From: Methanococcoides burtonii DSM 6242
GTDB lineage: Archaea; Halobacteriota; Methanosarcinia; Methanosarcinales; Methanosarcinaceae
DNA length: 64,000 bases
Assembly (NCBI RefSeq): GCF_000013725.1
Contig: NC_007955.1
Location: forward strand, 2,387,579-2,451,578
Direction: 5' to 3'
Numbering within the stretch: position 1 is the stretch's first letter; each line of letters opens with the position of its first letter. The notes below the pieces were generated by a model, which saw only the letters and a list, made by a program, of their open reading frames with translations, made no database searches and was not told where the DNA came from. Positions 35,858-64,000 of this stretch are shown here, in pieces. The position numbers and the translations under genes were made by a program.

Positions 35858-36193
35858 TTGGGAAAAATAACAAAAGGATCAATTGTAGTACTGCCATTCC
35901 CATTTTCAGATTTGGCAGCAGCAAAAAAGAGACCCTCTTTAGTAGTTGTGGATCTGAAAGGTGATGATGTAATACTTTGTCCCATTACATCAACTCATCG
36001 AGGCGATGGCTATGATATTTCATTAAAATCTGGAGATTTTATCCAAGGTGGCCTGAAGCATGATAGTTTGATTCGTTCAAATCGACTTTTCACTGCAACT
36101 ACTGATATCATCGCTTACAAAGTAGGCGATATTACTAATACAAAAATGAAAGAAGTTGAAGATGTGCTTGTAAAGTTAATAACAATGCATTAA
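35858..36193 (+). CDS. MazF/PemK-type endoribonuclease toxin
   Basis: A 111-residue PemK/MazF-fold protein starting at TTG 35858. KGSIVVLPFPFSDLAAAKKRPSLVV matches the family's N-terminal strand and the conserved arginine after KK, and ITSTHRGDGYDISLKSGDF and SLIRSNRLFT follow. MazF toxins cut single-stranded RNA and arrest growth. Its AbrB antitoxin gene at 33869 now lies on the other side of an IS66-family element, so co-transcription is broken unless the element supplies an outward promoter. Confidence 0.85.
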   Translation: MGKITKGSIVVLPFPFSDLAAAKKRPSLVVVDLKGDDVILCPITSTHRGDGYDISLKSGDFIQGGLKHDSLIRSNRLFTATTDIIAYKVGDITNTKMKEVEDVLVKLITMH

Positions 36194-49207: not shown

Positions 49208-49305
49208 AGTTTATAATGCTGCGATAAGGTCATGCAGAGATATGCCTTGTCGCATCATTGCATAAGATTAAATATGAAAAATGAGTTTAGAGATTGTTCC
49301 TTTTT

Positions 49306-49351
49306 GCGGGGGTTGCCCAGCCTGGCCAAAGGCGCAGGGCTTAGGACCTTA
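49306..49351 (+). tRNA. Truncated tRNA-Leu (TAG) pseudogene
   Basis: GCGGGGGTTGCCCAGCC through CTTAGGACC copies the 5' half of the intact tRNA-Leu at 49442. The anticodon stem is mismatched, and the variable, T and 3' acceptor arms are missing. Confidence 0.75.
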
Positions 49352-49441: not shown

Positions 49442-49526
49442 GCGAGGGTTGCCCAGCCAGGTCAAAGGCGATGGGCTTAGGACCCATTTTCGTAGGAATT
49501 CGTGTGTTCGAATCACACCTCTCGCA
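49442..49526 (+). tRNA. tRNA-Leu (anticodon TAG)
   Basis: An 85-base type II tRNA: acceptor GCGAGGG with CTCTCGC, anticodon loop CTTAGGA on an ATGGG/CCCAT stem, long variable arm, T-arm TGTGTTCGAATCACA. CCA is encoded at 49527-49529. Confidence 0.93.
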
Positions 49527-49529
49527 CCA

Positions 49530-50526
49530 TCTTTTTTATATGTTTGTATCAAAATCGCATTTGAAGATGTATGTTACATTCAATATGAATATTAGAATTA
49601 AAGCTATTGTGATGAGTTCAATTTTCCCCTGACGGCTTGCCAGATGTATATAAAACTCTCTTGCTATTTTTTTTGACATGTAATTCGGAGTTCAAAGCTG
49701 ACTCTTTATACAATAAATTAAGTATGTAGAAATCTTATTCTCCTCTCTAAATTCAATTTCCGTTTCCTAATGGTCAACTGATTTCGTGCACAAACAAGAA
49801 ATCAAATCTATATATGTTGTTTATTCTTCTCAAACATATATTCATTAAACCAGCACTGCAGGAAAATATGCAAACTTGCATCTTTCAATCAATTTGTGGA
49901 TTTACTTTGCTAGATGAAAACCCTTCCACGGTTTTAATTATGTATTCTGTAGATTCAAGTCAGATCTGCTGATGTCATGCAGTTATTGAGGTCTGCGTCC
50001 ATTGGTACATGTACTTAATATCTTACTAATTCTGAAGATTCTAATAATTTAACTTAAAAGGGTTATTTGAAACACACACATGTCCAAAAAAAAGCTTCTC
50101 GTATTGAATTGGATCTGTTAAGATTATTATCAAATTTCCATATAGTTTCATATTGCCAATGATTAAGCACTTTCATTGAATCTGCAATATCTGTTTTTTC
50201 AGTTTTGATTTGAGTGACAAAACTAAATATGGGCGCATTATTATTTTAAACAGTAGCCGTGACAAGTCATCAATATGTCACGGTTTGTACCTTATTTTGG
50301 CAAATTTCAAATCGAAAACATTATTGTATATAAACATCACTACAAACATTTATATATTATAAATTTGCAGCAAATGTTTAAATAATAGAAGAGAATTGTA
50401 TTATATGTGAATGATTTGTTCACAAATTCCATTCAAAAATTGAGGATTTGTCTAAATCTTAGATTTTTCTCAAATTGAATGGATATGTCTAAAAATTGAA
50501 TGGATATATCTAAAAGGAGACTAAAT
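49530..50526 (+). promoter_or_regulatory. Long non-coding region and leader upstream of mttB
   Basis: About 1 kb without a convincing gene. CCGTGACA (50257-50264) and TGTCACGG (50276-50283) form a perfect 8-bp hairpin. A promoter-like TTTATATATTATAAA (about 50349-50363) sits inside arms AAACATTT (50344) and AAATGTTT (50372). TGTGAA/TTCACA follows near 50407-50422. Finally the 21-bp unit AAATTGAATGGATATRTCTAA is repeated in tandem at 50472 and 50493, ending 6 bases before the ribosome binding site of mttB. Confidence 0.6.
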
Positions 50527-52020
50527 ATGACAAACGAAAATTTGTGTGCAGGTAGAAACAGGTATGATGGGGTTTCTATAGATTTCTTTTCTGATGCAGA
50601 TCTGAGGGCAATAGATTCTGCAACCATGGATGTATTCCAGAATCCTGGTATACAGGTAAGTGATGCAGAATCAAGAGCACTTTTTAAAGAGGCAGGGTGT
50701 GATGTTAACGAAAAAACCATGGTTGTTAAAATACCAGAACATGTTGTCAGAAGGGCAATAATGACTGCACCTTCAAAAATAACACTTTATGGACGTGAAA
50801 AACAACACACATTTACACAGCAAGCTGGCGGAAAAGTTCACTACACATGTTTTGGTACTGGTGTTAAAATGTGTAAATATGAAGCGCCTGGTGTATTCAA
50901 GACTGTTGATTCTACTGAAGAGGATCTTGCAAATACTGCACGGGTTTGTGACTGGGCAGATAATATTGATTCTTATTCACTTGCTGTTTCTGCGAGAGAT
51001 TGGGCGGGAAAAGGTGCTCAGGATGTACATGAAACATTCACACCACTTATGAACACATCTAAGCATTTCTTCCATATTGATCCAGTCGGCGAGAATGTTG
51101 AATATTACTGGGACATCTTAAAAGCATATTATGGCGGGGATGAAGAACAAGCACGAAGCAGGCCAATATTCTCTGAACTCTTGTGCCCAACAAGCCCCCT
51201 CAAGATCGGAACTAATGCCTGCCAATTAATTCTTAAAAGTGTCAACTTTGGAATCCCGATAAATGTTATAAGTATGGCAATGTCGGGTGCATCATGTCCA
51301 GTACATCTTGCAGGAACTCTTGTTACTCATAATGCAGAAGTTCTTTCAGGTATTGTTCTAGCACAGTTGGCATCACCTGGTGCAAAAGTCTGGTACGGTA
51401 GCTCGACCACAGCATTCGACCTGAAACATGGTACAGCACCTGTAGGCTCACCTGAGCTAGGTCTCATCAGTGCTGCAGTAGCAAAATTGGGTCAGTATTA
51501 TGATCTGCCAACATATGTAGCTTCCACTTAGACTGATGCTAAAGTTCCTGATGGCCAAGCAGGTCATGAAAAAACCTTGACCAACCTCCTTCCTGCACTG
51601 GCTGGTGCAAATACGCTGTACGGTGCAGGTATGCTTGAACTTGGAATGACATTCTCAATGGAACAACTTATGATAGACAACGATATCATCTCGATGGGAA
51701 AGAAAGTCATGAAAGGAATTCCAGTAAACGATGAAACTCTTGGTCTAGCATCCATCCAGAAGGTAGGAATCGGTAACAATTTCCTTGCACACAAAGAAAC
51801 CAGGGATAATATCAATCTTGTATCTTCTCCTGATATTTTTGACAGAGATATGTTCGGTGATTGGGCAGCAGCAGGTTCCAAAGATATTGCAACCGTTGCA
51901 CACGAGAAAGTTACTGAAATATTGAAGAATCATGAGGTTACTCCAATCGATTCCGATCTTGTGAGAGATATGAAGGCTGTAGTGGACAGGGCAGATGCTG
52001 ACTTCAGATCCAGCATGTAA
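50527..52020 (+). CDS. mttB: Trimethylamine methyltransferase MttB (pyrrolysine-containing)
   Basis: A 497-residue enzyme if TAG 51529-51531 (codon 335) is read as pyrrolysine. It moves a methyl group from trimethylamine to MttC. The N-terminal region ([22 protein letters not shown]), the TIM-barrel segments ([10 protein letters not shown]-like [27 protein letters not shown]) and the amber context PTYVAST-(TAG)[14 protein letters not shown] match MttB. Reading continues to TAA at 52018-52020 without other stops. ATG 50527 is chosen because AAAAGGAGA lies 8 bases upstream. It heads a cluster with mttC and the permease. Confidence 0.95.
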
Positions 52021-58475: not shown

Positions 58476-58541
58476 TAACTGGTCCTGAGATGGCAATCTT
58501 CTCCTTCTACGGACCTCACTCATTTTACAATCTCTAATTGG

Positions 58542-58577
58542 ACTACCACCCATTTAAATGGGTGGTAGTTCACTTTT
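58542..58577 (+). terminator. Terminator after the zinc-ribbon gene
   Basis: A perfect 28-bp palindrome, ACTACCACCCATTT (58542-58555) with AAATGGGTGGTAGT (58556-58569), followed by CAC and a T6 run. Confidence 0.85.
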
Positions 58578-58624
58578 TTAAAATATCGATTGTGTTGATT
58601 ATATGACTTCATTTCTTTGAAAAA

Positions 58625-58710: not shown

Positions 58711-58748
58711 AGAAATCTACTTATCTTTTACAATTAATATAAGTGTTA

Positions 58749-59393
58749 ATGTTACCATCAATAGTCAACCTTGATATTGTCTTGAGAGATCAAGTGGATC
58801 ACTTGACAATAGCTGAGTTTCATAAGCTCTTGGATGCTGCAGATCGGAAGCTGGGAACTTTGCAGAGATCTTCAATTCGTAATGCATATGTAAGGGATCG
58901 GAATAAGATATTGATGATAACAATGTGGGCTACTGGTGGCAGGGTCTCCGATGTTCTCTCCATCCATGAATCTGATATTGACTTTGAAGAAAAGACAATC
59001 AAATTCTTTGTATCAAAAAGGAAAAAGTGGCATACTATCAGTCTTGATAGTGATACAACACTACGATTATCAAACTATATCAGGACCTGGAATATATCTG
59101 GGTTGCTTTTCCAGAGTATCAATGGTTCAAAAAAAGCAATGATCCGTCAGAGTGTAAATTATATGCTGGATGATTATGCACAAATTGCAGGCATCAGATC
59201 TATCCATCCTCACCTTTTCAGGCATGGTTTAGCCACATACTTGCTCTCCAAAGGTGTTCCCATGGAAATCATAGCATACAGGTTGAAACATGCTAGTACA
59301 AGGACTACAGCAGCCTTCTATGCAAGGGTAACACCAGATATTGAGAGGCAATTAATCTCTGCATGTGTTCCGGATATTTTGGGAATGAGTTGA
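58749..59393 (+). CDS. Tyrosine recombinase, compact catalytic form
   Basis: A 214-residue XerC/XerD-like recombinase containing essentially the catalytic domain: first Arg in TGGRVSDVLSI, HPHLFRHGLATYLLSKG with His/Arg, LKHASTRTTAAFY with the second His, and the Tyr nucleophile in AFYARVTPD. It lacks most of the usual N-terminal core-binding domain, so it may be a truncated integrase or a compact type. ATG 58749 or GTG 58743 can start it. It sits beside repeats and alternative hairpins that could be its targets. Confidence 0.85.
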   Translation: MLPSIVNLDIVLRDQVDHLTIAEFHKLLDAADRKLGTLQRSSIRNAYVRDRNKILMITMWATGGRVSDVLSIHESDIDFEEKTIKFFVSKRKKWHTISLDSDTTLRLSNYIRTWNISGLLFQSINGSKKAMIRQSVNYMLDDYAQIAGIRSIHPHLFRHGLATYLLSKGVPMEIIAYRLKHASTRTTAAFYARVTPDIERQLISACVPDILGMS

Positions 59394-59548: not shown

Positions 59549-59922
59549 TATGATCTTCAAGAGCCGTTCAGGTTCATTGTAGATCTCACTGTTATGAACC
59601 TGATTGAAAAGGGAGCTATGGATAACAAGGATTTTGTCAGGACTGAAAGCTTTTCTCTAAGGCTTAGACCTACTGGAGCAAGGAAGGTTACTGAAGAGTT
59701 TAATTCAGTGATGAATAGAAAAGTTGATTATAGGAAAAGAACAGCTCTTGGAGTTCTGTTCTTTTGGGGAAGGCAAGAGAGTTAAGTCATTATCTTGTTG
59801 GAAAGAGTAAAACGGTTGAGTTTGTCAATCCTGTTTATGCTGGAAAAGGGAATGATTCTGATTTTCTGAGAAGGAAAATCATTGATATATCTTATACATG
59901 GAAGGACACTGCCGTTTTTTGA
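59549..59922 (+). pseudogene. cas1: cas1 relic (C-terminal part, frameshifted)
   Basis: Conceptual translation reads YDLQEPFRFIVDLTVMNLIE, then FSLRLRPTGARKVTEEFNSV and MNRKVDY. After a frame change near 59733-59738 it continues SSWSSVLLGKARELSHYLVG, KSKTVEFVNPVY and FLRRKIIDISYTWKD, ending at TGA 59920-59922. The QEPFR-VDL segment, the acidic active-site helix and the ARELSHYLVGK helix match the C-terminal half of Cas1 integrases. The N-terminal half and the final helices are missing, and no CRISPR array or other cas gene is in the window. A dead remnant of an adaptation module. Confidence 0.6.
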
Positions 59923-59968: not shown

Positions 59969-61696
59969 TCATTCAATTAATTCCTTAAATCTTGAATCAT
60001 CCCATAAGAGTTCGAAATCTTGATCATTCATAGCACTATTTTTATCGGAATCATCTAATTCGATTGATTTAGCCAACCTATAAAGCGCCTCTTCTTTATT
60101 GCCATTTTTAGAGAATATCGAAGCTGAAGCATACCAAGCATCATCATCATTTGGATCCATCTCAAGTGCTTTGTCATAACATTCTATCGCTTCATTGTAT
60201 CTTTCAAGATAATAAAGCGCATTGCCCTTGTTATTCCAACATGAACTAAAATCTGGATATATCTCAAGTGTTTTATCATAGCACTCTATCGCTTCATTGT
60301 ACCTTTCAAGATTACAAAGTGCATTGCCCTTGTTATTACAATACATACCAAAATCGGTGCTTATCTCAAGTGCTTTATCGTAGCACTCTATCGCTTCATC
60401 GTGCCTTTCAAGGTTACAAAGTGCATCGCCTTTGTTACCCCAATATGAACTAAAATCTGGATCTATCTCAATTGCTTTATCATAGCACTCTATCGCTTCA
60501 TCGTACTTTTCAAGGTTACAAAGTGCATCGCCCTTGTTATTGCAATATGAACTAAAATCTGGATCTATCTCAATTGCTTTATCATAGCATTCTATCGCTT
60601 TATTGTACTTTTCAAGATTAAAATGTGCATTGCCCTTGTTATTCCAATACATATCAAAATCGGTACTCATCTCAATTGCTTTATCATAGCACTCTATCGC
60701 TTCATTGTACCTTTCAAGATTACAAAGTGCATCGCCCTTGTTATTGCAATATGAACTAAAATCTGGATCTATCTCAATTGCTTTATCATAGCACTCTATC
60801 GCTTCATCGTACTTTTCAAGGTTACAAAGTGCATCGCCCTTGTTATTGCAATATGAACTAAAATCTGGATCTATCTCAATTGCTTTATCATAGCACTCTA
60901 TCGCTTCATCGTACCTTTCAAGGTTACAAAGTGCATTGCCCTTGTTATTCCAATACATATCAAAATCGGTGCTTATCTCAATTGCTTTATCATAGCACCC
61001 TATCGCTTCATCGTACTTTTCAAGGTTACAGAGTGCATCACCCTTGTTACTCCAATATGAATCATTATCGGGATTATGTTCAAGTGCTTTTGTATAATAA
61101 TCAAGTTCAAGGTTTACTATTTTCTCTATGTTTAAGAAGATAGTCGCAGCATCAGAATCAAATTCTAGATTAGTGTTTTTTCGACGCTCAAGACTATTAA
61201 TCATTGTTTTGCATCTTTCAATCTCTCTTCTGATGACATCTAATTCTTTTTCTGTCCTTTTTCTTTTATCCCGTGCTATCTTTCTATTTAATCGCGAGAT
61301 TTCTTTTTTCTCTTTCAAGTATTTCTCAACAATATTCCTAATATCGCCTTTTGTAAGATCAGTACCTTTTGACTCTGCCCATCTCATCAAATCTGGTAAA
61401 GCCTGTCCTCTTTTAATGTTAACACTCATCCATGTCCTACCAAGTTTGGTACAAACTTCGTTTGTATCCATGGTTACGTCCAATAACACAGCATATTCTT
61501 CTTTATCGTCCCACTTTCTTTGAAAAATCTGATCTCCTAATCTATTAATTCTAAATGCCACGTTCTCTTCAATCGTGATAGGGTGAAACATTTCACTCAT
61601 AAAATCCAAAAAGTTCTGTTGTTGTTCTTTATTCATAAGAATGGGGTTATCAAAATCGACATTTCCTTTGTCACCAATAAGTAATGTCATTTTCAA
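59969..61696 (-). CDS. HTH-TPR fusion protein with higher-order TPR array
   Basis: A 575-residue protein. Residues 1-135 form a domain shared with the upstream gene product. It includes a Myb/SANT- or gcrA-like helix-turn-helix (WDDKEEYAVLLDVTMDTNEV then CTKLGRTWMSVNIKRGQALP) and a K-G ... EKYLKEK end. Residues 135-190 are charged coiled coil. From about 205, nine 34-residue TPRs (NNKGDALCNLEKYDEAIECY type) and a degenerate tenth follow, then an acidic tail (DFELLWDDSRFKELIE). TPR linkers cycle STDFDM, DPDFSS, DPDFSS, a three-repeat superunit of 306 bp. Its start overlaps the stop of the upstream gene (ATGA), so they are translationally coupled. Function unknown. Confidence 0.8.
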   Translation of the reverse strand: MKMTLLIGDKGNVDFDNPILMNKEQQQNFLDFMSEMFHPITIEENVAFRINRLGDQIFQRKWDDKEEYAVLLDVTMDTNEVCTKLGRTWMSVNIKRGQALPDLMRWAESKGTDLTKGDIRNIVEKYLKEKKEISRLNRKIARDKRKRTEKELDVIRREIERCKTMINSLERRKNTNLEFDSDAATIFLNIEKIVNLELDYYTKALEHNPDNDSYWSNKGDALCNLEKYDEAIGCYDKAIEISTDFDMYWNNKGNALCNLERYDEAIECYDKAIEIDPDFSSYCNNKGDALCNLEKYDEAIECYDKAIEIDPDFSSYCNNKGDALCNLERYNEAIECYDKAIEMSTDFDMYWNNKGNAHFNLEKYNKAIECYDKAIEIDPDFSSYCNNKGDALCNLEKYDEAIECYDKAIEIDPDFSSYWGNKGDALCNLERHDEAIECYDKALEISTDFGMYCNNKGNALCNLERYNEAIECYDKTLEIYPDFSSCWNNKGNALYYLERYNEAIECYDKALEMDPNDDDAWYASASIFSKNGNKEEALYRLAKSIELDDSDKNSAMNDQDFELLWDDSRFKELIE

Positions 61697-62076
61697 ATCC
61701 CCCTTTCCATTAAGTATTCATTGACCATCTTTTTAGTGATTGGTGCAGAATAACCTTTCAAATTAATCCACGAATAAAATTCAGGTATGAAACTTCCTCT
61801 TTTCATGATGATGCTCATGTTCGTTCGTCCTGTTTCCCTGCTTAATTCTTCATTACTATCGGCTTTCAATAGAGCAAAATAATCATCTGCTGTCCATTCA
61901 ATCATTTGTCGGCTTACAGACCCCATCCTTTTAGAAACTTCTTCTACTTCTCGAACTCCAATATCAGAATAATTGATTTGCATAAAATCAATGAATTTTT
62001 CGCGTTGATCTTCGGTCATGTGAATAGGAGCTTCAAAATCAATGTAATTGTTAGTAACATATATTTTCATTTTCAA
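61693..62076 (-). CDS. Stand-alone version of the HTH domain of the TPR protein
   Basis: 127 residues homologous over their length to residues 1-130 of the following protein: both start MKM, share F-x-x-P-I and M-x-x-(E/D)-Q ... F-x-DFM, then W-x-x-(D/E)-x-Y-A-LL and a helix-turn-helix (SNEELSRETGRTNMSIIMKRG versus its partner), ending V-x-(E/K)YL. The pattern W-(10-15)-LGRT-x-x-S(V/I)-x-x-KRG suggests Myb/SANT-like DNA binding. It is the first gene of a coupled pair and is preceded by an A/T-rich promoter region. Possible DNA-binding partner or antagonist of the TPR protein; no known family identified. Confidence 0.75.
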   Translation of the reverse strand: MKMKIYVTNNYIDFEAPIHMTEDQREKFIDFMQINYSDIGVREVEEVSKRMGSVSRQMIEWTADDYFALLKADSNEELSRETGRTNMSIIMKRGSFIPEFYSWINLKGYSAPITKKMVNEYLMERGI

Positions 62077-62322
62077 ACATCCACCAAATAATTAAAAAAA
62101 TACTTCCCGAATAAATTCGATGTTTAAAAATGGTTTTCCAAAGTATTAATACTTTTTTTGGAAACAAAATTACTAAAAGTGTTGCTAATCTGAGATTCAG
62201 ATGAAAATTGTTTTAACAAAAATTCCAGCTAACCATTGAAACAATTTATTTTATAGAAATATCCAACTTTACAAAAATCTAGCGTACACTTTTTCAGTGT
62301 TGTATATATCCCCGTATGTTGG

Positions 62323-62397
62323 TGCAGGGGGTGGGATTCGAAACCACAACTTCCTTTGAAATCGGATTTTAAGTCCGATGCCGTTATCCTGCCCTAC
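62323..62397 (-). tRNA. Degenerate tRNA-Leu (TAA) gene or attachment-site copy
   Basis: In reverse complement, the anticodon arm (ATCGGA, loop CTTAAAA, TCCGAT), variable arm, T-arm and 3' end with encoded CCA (62320-62322) look like tRNA-Leu. The D-arm is about 10 bases short, the acceptor has a C/C mismatch (GTAGGGC against CCCCTGC) and T-stem pair 53-61 is broken. It is probably non-functional, with a better conserved 3' half, and lies 410 bases from an integrase gene. Confidence 0.6.
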
Positions 62398-62808
62398 AAC
62401 TTCTGAACTATTAAATTGTGTAATGTTTGTAGTATAGAATATTACATAACGGCACAGTTTGCAGTAAAAATGTCATGACGAAAAAAGATACTTAGTATTT
62501 CATATCAGATTGGAAGAAGAGTACAAGCATCTTGAAAATCTCGTTGACAATCTCTCTGAAATTTTTTCAATCCTAATATAATCATATATTATGTATATTG
62601 ATGTTGATCATCCTTTGCTTCTATCTATCATACTTCCAAACCCCTTACAATTATAGAAGCAAGACAAATCATTAGCTTATATTATGGATAATAATGAGTA
62701 TTTTTCACAGTGGTATTAGTAAAGACCTTACGAAGGCACATAGTTATATGCAGCAAGTAAAAGATAAACTCCAAATAAATTGAATATCGATAATCATTTT
62801 AATATTAA
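62398..62808 (+). other. Gene-free stretch with an IS5 relic
   Basis: Mostly A/T-rich with no gene. Bases 62514-62566 (GAAGAAGAGTACAAGCATC ... CTCTCTGAAATT) closely match the start of the IS5-like transposase at 56868-56920. The match fades on both sides, so this is a short relic of the same element type. Confidence 0.65.
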
Positions 62809-63948
62809 TTATTGTCCAAGGCTAATTCCTTTTAATATTTCGTTTATTCTAGCTTCCACCAATTCATCAATCTTGGATTCCATAAGTTGTGTAAGTTTTC
62901 CATCGGTTGTTTTTATTTCAGTATCAAGTTTAACTGCTGTTTTTATATCAAGCACCATTGAACAGCTACTGCAATACTTGGAATCATGTGGGTTAAGGGT
63001 TTTACAACGCGGACATTCAATTGGTTTGAGTTCAAGTTTTTCTTTTTTGATCTCATCTTCTATTATACCGTAAGAAGCCAGCAGTTTCTTTTCAACATCA
63101 TCTCCAGATAGATGGATGTATGTGGCAGGCATTTTTGAGTCTGCTTCCCAACCAGCGATGATTCTCAGCTCAGTTTCTTTGAAACCACGTTTAACGAGAT
63201 CAGTAAGTTTTCCATGTCTGAATGCATGTGGATGTATGTTTTTCTTGATTCCTGCATCTTCAGCAACCTTTTTGAGTGTATTCTGAACTGTACGAATATC
63301 GAGCCTTTTTGGTTCATTTCCAGTGTTTCTGAAAGTGACAAACAAAGGTGATTCTGGATTATTTTTGTATGGATGTTGGTTTATCCATGCTTGGAGGTCA
63401 GGCACTGCTTCAATGAGTCGAATTCTTCTCATTCCAGTCTTACCTTCAACAACTATCACAGCTCCATATTTGTCAATCTCCACATGTCCAATGTTCAGGT
63501 TCAGTACTTCAGTAGCTCTTGCGGCACTATCCCATAATGTCATTATAATTGCTCTGTCGCGCTGAGTTTTACATGCGGGAATAAGTTTCTTCACATCTGC
63601 TGGTACAATTATCTCTTTAGTGGGTAAGTGGTTCTTTGGAGTACGGGTCTTGATGTCTTCAAAAAAAGTGTTATCTGGCTTTAACCACTTGAAAAAGAGT
63701 CTCAGATCGACAATATCATTATGGACTGTTTTTGGCTTATTGTTTTTTCTTCGAAAAAGTATATAGCTCTCAATGTCTTTTTTTGTGATTTCATTGATTT
63801 TTTTGTTATCGTGGTGTTTAAGGAATGTGTAAACTTTCCATAGCTTTGTATTGATGGTAGTTTCTTTGAAGTTGTTAAGTCCAAGGCTTCTTGCATAGTC
63901 TTCTAGCACTTCTTTGTTTGTTTCATCAAATTCAGGTGCATATTTCAT
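62809..63948 (-). CDS. Tyrosine recombinase/integrase with C-terminal zinc ribbon
   Basis: A 379-residue integrase. The N-terminal SAM-like core-binding domain covers about 1-95 (TTINTKLWKVYTFLKHHDNK). The catalytic domain has Arg in DSAARATEVLNL, HPHAFRHGKLTDLVKRG, IIAGWEADSK and the nucleophile in MPATYIHLSGDD. A zinc ribbon (CPRCKTLNPHDSKYCSSC) and a C-terminal helical tail follow. It has the same architecture as the frameshifted integrase at 36404-37626 but is intact. It lies next to the degenerate tRNA-Leu, the probable target of its element, which would extend beyond the window's right edge. Confidence 0.9.
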   Translation of the reverse strand: MKYAPEFDETNKEVLEDYARSLGLNNFKETTINTKLWKVYTFLKHHDNKKINEITKKDIESYILFRRKNNKPKTVHNDIVDLRLFFKWLKPDNTFFEDIKTRTPKNHLPTKEIIVPADVKKLIPACKTQRDRAIIMTLWDSAARATEVLNLNIGHVEIDKYGAVIVVEGKTGMRRIRLIEAVPDLQAWINQHPYKNNPESPLFVTFRNTGNEPKRLDIRTVQNTLKKVAEDAGIKKNIHPHAFRHGKLTDLVKRGFKETELRIIAGWEADSKMPATYIHLSGDDVEKKLLASYGIIEDEIKKEKLELKPIECPRCKTLNPHDSKYCSSCSMVLDIKTAVKLDTEIKTTDGKLTQLMESKIDELVEARINEILKGISLGQ

Positions 63949-64000
63949 ACTTCATAACATGCTTTATACACTTATAAATATTACGTGGCCCTGTATGTAG

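Follow-up and report, generated by a model that had tools for sequence, protein, structure and literature searches.

The window examined here is a 64,000-nucleotide stretch of the genome of Methanococcoides burtonii, a cold-adapted methanogenic archaeon; this genome comprises 2,575,032 bases in one contig. Two adjacent genes lie near its right end, and both open reading frames were confirmed on the minus strand where an earlier note on this DNA had placed them (Table 1). The small gene encodes an HTH-domain protein, and the large gene encodes a related domain followed by a predicted coiled coil and about ten TPRs (TPR_1, E 1.9e-100). The DNA of the TPR array consists of tandem repeats with a 102-bp unit and a higher period of 306 bp at 91% matches. 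The small protein aligns with the first ~130 residues of the large protein at 33% identity (BLASTP, E 7e-15), and the alignment score of 142 lies beyond all shuffles (n=2000; mean 28.7, sd 5.2, maximum 56), which bears out the homology proposed earlier between the small protein, given as 127 residues, and the leading 130 residues of the large one, given as 575. The residues common to both domains include, in order, DF..PI.M...Q...F.DFM; DD...Y..LL; and GRT.MS...KRG...P....W....KG.

Table 1 Features of the gene pair, its island and the adjoining relics (window positions).
Feature	Position	Strand	Remark
Left junction, 5' part of resident tRNA-Leu(TAG) gene	49294..49348	+	core AGGGCTTAGGACC at 49336-49348; 55/55 identical to G022
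Intact tRNA-Leu(TAG), diverged extra copy in left end of island	49442..49529	+
Second XerA-like recombinase, N-terminally short	58743..59393	+
Cas1 C-terminal relic, frameshifted	59560..59920	+	PF01867, E 6.6e-6 on first part, above cut-off
Large gene, HTH + coiled coil + about 10 TPRs	59969..61696	-	573 aa from ATG 61690, 575 aa from TTG
TPR array, large protein	60149..61090	-	recently duplicated; 102-bp unit, 306-bp super-unit
Predicted long helix/coiled coil, large protein	61175..61342	-	residues 117-172 from ATG; model pLDDT about 60-70
HTH domain, large protein	61301..61690	-	from alignment to small protein
Small gene, HTH-domain protein	61693..62076	-	125 aa from ATG 62070, 127 aa from TTG
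Perfect 16-bp palindrome AAAGTATTAATACTTT, candidate operator	62140..62155	.	70 bp upstream of the ATG of the small gene
tRNA-Leu(TAA)-like 3' fragment, degenerate	62330..62395	-	from sequence
Island integrase, XerA-like tyrosine recombinase with C-terminal zinc ribbon	62809..63948	-	right end
Right junction, core + 3' part of tRNA-Leu(TAG)	63999..64000, on as L006 4577-4634	+	58/58 identical to G022

The two genes had been described as overlapping by ATGA, which requires correction: starting at TTG they share TTGA, and starting at ATG, the likelier choice, they are separated by 2 nt. The ATG codons of both genes are favored because they lie 7-10 nt downstream of GGTGG/GGGGGA, a better ribosome-site spacing than that of the TTG codons. 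Moreover, the start context GGxGGAT..TTTGAAAATGA is common to both genes, as would be expected if a tandem duplication had carried the translation start along. Domain homology and the common start context together indicate tandem duplication within one transcription unit.

What kind of domain do the two proteins share? It has no precedent in the libraries searched: it matched no family of Pfam, PHROG or NCBIfam, no convincing HTH family match appeared in these three collections even at E 10, and Myb/SANT in particular gave no Pfam match at E up to 10. A search by sequence returned no solved structure below E 0.8, a viral structure library gave no match below E 0.2, and Foldseek comparison of the small-protein model with the PDB gave nothing below E 1. 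DUF7167 was rejected as an assignment, since its match (E 0.02) lies below the family cut-off, spans 27 residues and concerns one of three members. The small-protein model has a pLDDT of 70, and its best part, residues 61-123, is helical with block pLDDT values of 75-91. In model comparison, residues ~58-104 align with three-helix HTHs, and chains of Myb3, Cdc5 and c-Myb stand high in the structural list at Z 3.7-4.8; the superposition on Myb3 (Z 4.8) covers 57 residues at an rmsd of 2.9. Residues 59-136 of the large-protein domain, modeled at pLDDT 56, match mostly bacterial HTH regulators (Z 4.4-5.7). These comparisons weakly support a trihelical Myb-like HTH in the small protein; they fit an HTH, fall short of proof and do not establish Myb membership. 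The Myb/SANT likeness proposed in the earlier note thus survives in that Myb chains head the structural list, and is held back by a Z score of at most 4.8 for a model of pLDDT 70, whereas the proposal of a paired, duplicated HTH-type domain outside any described family is supported. The pair defines a small domain family that lacks a profile in the libraries searched.

Relatives were sought in 238 genomes of the class, a 393-genome sample of the phylum and 59 genomes of a neighboring class. At E 0.01, a profile built from the two sequences found none outside the host genome in the phylum sample or in 186 genomes of the order, and the 59 genomes of the neighboring class contained no relatives. 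Profile search of the 238 class genomes recovered one clear relative (G524:C199:13207-13476, E 4.6e-12), which shares 38% identity with the small protein (E 5e-18) and is more distant from the large-protein domain, to which it aligns with a score of 84 (shuffle maximum 55) and gives no BLASTP match. This relative lies head-to-head with, and divergent from, the adjoining gene cluster, an arrangement common for regulators. It runs off the end of its contig, and both genes together are seen in one genome only, which makes the pairing a candidate and not an established conserved system. No relatives were present in viral contigs, phages or plasmids, nor in genome contigs scanned with short patterns, which is an insensitive method, and the literature yielded nothing under guessed Mbur_ locus tags. 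Several other matches were discarded, including one in Sinorhizobium (E 0.1) on the antisense strand of guaB, phylum matches to large-protein residues 1-195 that were mostly coiled-coil and led to proteins of about 1150-1190 aa, probably SMC-like, and weak matches in genus g14 to a single zinc-ribbon protein that recurs there and, by eye, resembles ZPR1.

The pair resides in a 14.65-kb tyrosine-recombinase island that interrupts a tRNA-Leu(TAG) gene within its anticodon loop. Positions 49294-49348 equal the intact tRNA-Leu locus of the sister genome G022 over its bases 1-55, and positions 63999-64056, which extend past the window end, equal its bases 43-100, such that the joined flanks reproduce the intact sister gene base for base. 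Insertion of the island follows from this match of its flanks to the two parts of the G022 gene, with the overlap as the crossover core; the direct-repeat core is tRNA-derived and begins at 49336 and at 63999. G022 represents the empty site, and its tRNA-Leu lies close to the RuBisCO flank; methyltransferase and RuBisCO genes also lie near the pair in M. burtonii. Sister genomes carry other cargo. In G023 the recombinase genes and flanks are retained at 91-93% identity, but the place of the pair is taken by 2.7 kb of other DNA with a glutamate symporter and a transposase, and in G016 the hotspot holds a recombinase, then a DUF927 protein, a resolvase (by eye) and a DUF499/PglZ-like gene pair. 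This variability implies that the pair travels as accessory cargo and takes no part in the integration machinery, and it marks the Methanococcoides tRNA-Leu site as an island hotspot with exchangeable contents.

The surroundings described earlier, namely recombinases, IS elements and a cas1 relic, were recovered as two XerA-like recombinases, an IS transposase and a Cas1 relic (PF01867), and an IS remnant lies at 62514-62563. The degenerate tRNA-Leu(TAA)-like fragment is a probable old attachment-site relic, judging by its sequence, perhaps of another element. A second degenerate fragment of this type occurs at G000:C1:348882-348930, with similar upstream sequence. Elsewhere in the region, positions 58533-58606, upstream of the short recombinase gene, give a sub-threshold Rfam match to psRNA14 (E 0.014) that contains a perfect 16-bp palindrome, ACCCATTTAAATGGGT, at 58548. 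A methylamine-methyltransferase frame (MttB-type by eye) at 50500-52020 comprises two same-frame ORFs, 50500-51531 and 51577-52020, which possibly reflects an in-frame stop codon read as pyrrolysine. Between the island end and RuBisCO, at L006:4967-5919, a small gene overlaps by 4 bp the zeta-toxin-like kinase gene that comes after it (PF06414, E 8e-7), and the two look like a toxin-antitoxin pair; G016 has both genes and G023 has the small gene too.

The reading we favor, at about an even chance, is that of a rare archaeal HTH regulator pair, tandemly duplicated and carried as accessory cargo of an integrative island. In each protein a Trp-led three-helix HTH is predicted to come after an N-terminal hairpin/helix part; the small protein would be this HTH unit only, and in the large protein the unit would be joined to a coiled coil and, beyond that, a TPR arm. 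We hypothesize that both proteins bind within the promoter of the operon that encodes them, with the palindrome upstream of the small gene as candidate operator, and that they probably do so as homo- or heterodimers. When the 300 bp upstream are dinucleotide-shuffled, 1.5% of the shuffles contain a 16-bp palindrome (p about 0.015), a value that belongs to a feature noticed post hoc. The palindrome is absent at the G524 locus and does not recur at the other loci compared. No terminator-like site was found, and promoter-like matches, for which the consensus is bacterial only, were as numerous as in shuffles. The pair probably regulates itself through this palindrome. A protein or peptide is expected to dock on the TPR arm, which would thereby couple DNA binding to that partner or signal, and the role of the small protein would be to modulate its larger paralogue or to compete with it.

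The main rival hypothesis is that the pair forms an anti-virus module that senses invading DNA or regulates the response to it, and that the domain family travels with defense operons. The sole outside relative, in G524, adjoins, on the side away from the contig end, a relic of the HsdM N terminus (PF12161, E 4e-4, just under the cut-off) and a complete operon of HmaA, HmaB and HmaC (L098:2978-12828), in which HmaC, an ATPase, carries a HEPN_Swt1 domain that is also found in the product of the NERD-UvrD helicase gene that follows. Hma has been proposed as a defense system (PMC8565338), and an antiphage role of HmaA has been reported, with Hma placed as a Type-1 BR system (PMC12839542). The DUF499 and PglZ-like genes that come after the recombinase in G016, where the same tRNA-Leu hotspot is occupied, and the Cas1 relic 50-400 bp from the pair, point in the same direction. 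However, the link outside the host genome is a single case that carries no statistic, and the pair's own island holds methylamine methyltransferase genes and no complete defense system. Moreover, a glutamate symporter gene occupies the pair's position in G023, hotspots of this type also hold metabolic genes, as in the present island, and both proteins are without a recognizable effector domain, the PADLOC matches being generic TPR matches. The anti-virus module is thus possible but unlikely. The defense idea of the earlier note, then a bare hypothesis, has gained one independent case and become a weakly supported, single-case lead. That the small HTH protein and its HTH-coiled-coil-TPR paralogue form an undescribed archaeal defense-associated family, one that senses or switches the variable anti-virus cargo of tRNA hotspots, is, in our judgment, quite doubtful. 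To our knowledge few regulators of archaeal immunity have been described, and if the defense link holds in more genomes the pair would add a regulator type to them.

The remaining explanations are less probable still. A decaying orphan pair, left by an older mobile element and without current function, would account for the very sparse distribution and for the Cas1, IS and tRNA relics around the genes; we hold it rather improbable, since both frames are open and their start contexts conserved whereas the adjoining relics are broken, and the TPR array has expanded in frame in its 102/306-bp units. Control of the island itself, through recombinase expression, excision or maintenance, is suggested by the position of the pair inside the island, between two recombinase genes, with the integrase gene 732 bp away and on the same strand, but the recombinase genes retained in G023 without the pair indicate that the recombinases of the island can do without it, and we consider this role improbable. 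Finally, the large protein is laid out like the RRNPP regulators PlcR, NprR and AimR, in which an HTH precedes a TPR superhelix: its N-terminal HTH is succeeded by a linker and then TPRs, and by analogy it could be a peptide receptor with a short signal peptide. This is highly improbable, since no XRE-type/HTH_3 profile matched the pair's domain, the TPRs are canonical multi-copy repeats and not of the RRNPP type, the second partner is a separate HTH-only paralogue, and the pair is archaeal.

The favored reading, a duplicated regulator pair carried as island cargo, can be set beside several known systems. With Myb/SANT and homeodomain-like HTH proteins, the small protein would share a Trp-led three-helix HTH and a basic, Arg/Ser-rich recognition helix; unlike Myb/SANT, the pair's domain has no sequence-profile match, a predicted extra N-terminal hairpin/helix part and structural scores of only Z 3.7-4.8. 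The Hma/Type-1 BR operon is linked to the domain by adjacency to its sole outside relative; neither of the paired proteins belongs to that operon, and no HmaA/B/C-like proteins were recognized among the ORFs read from window position 36000 to about 15 kb past the window end. The island itself resembles tRNA-targeted archaeal integrative islands in its direct-repeat core within tRNA-Leu, its recombinase at one end, its variable cargo and the empty site of a sister genome, and it differs from them in a crossing point that falls in the anticodon loop and in the separate intact tRNA-Leu copy that it carries aboard.
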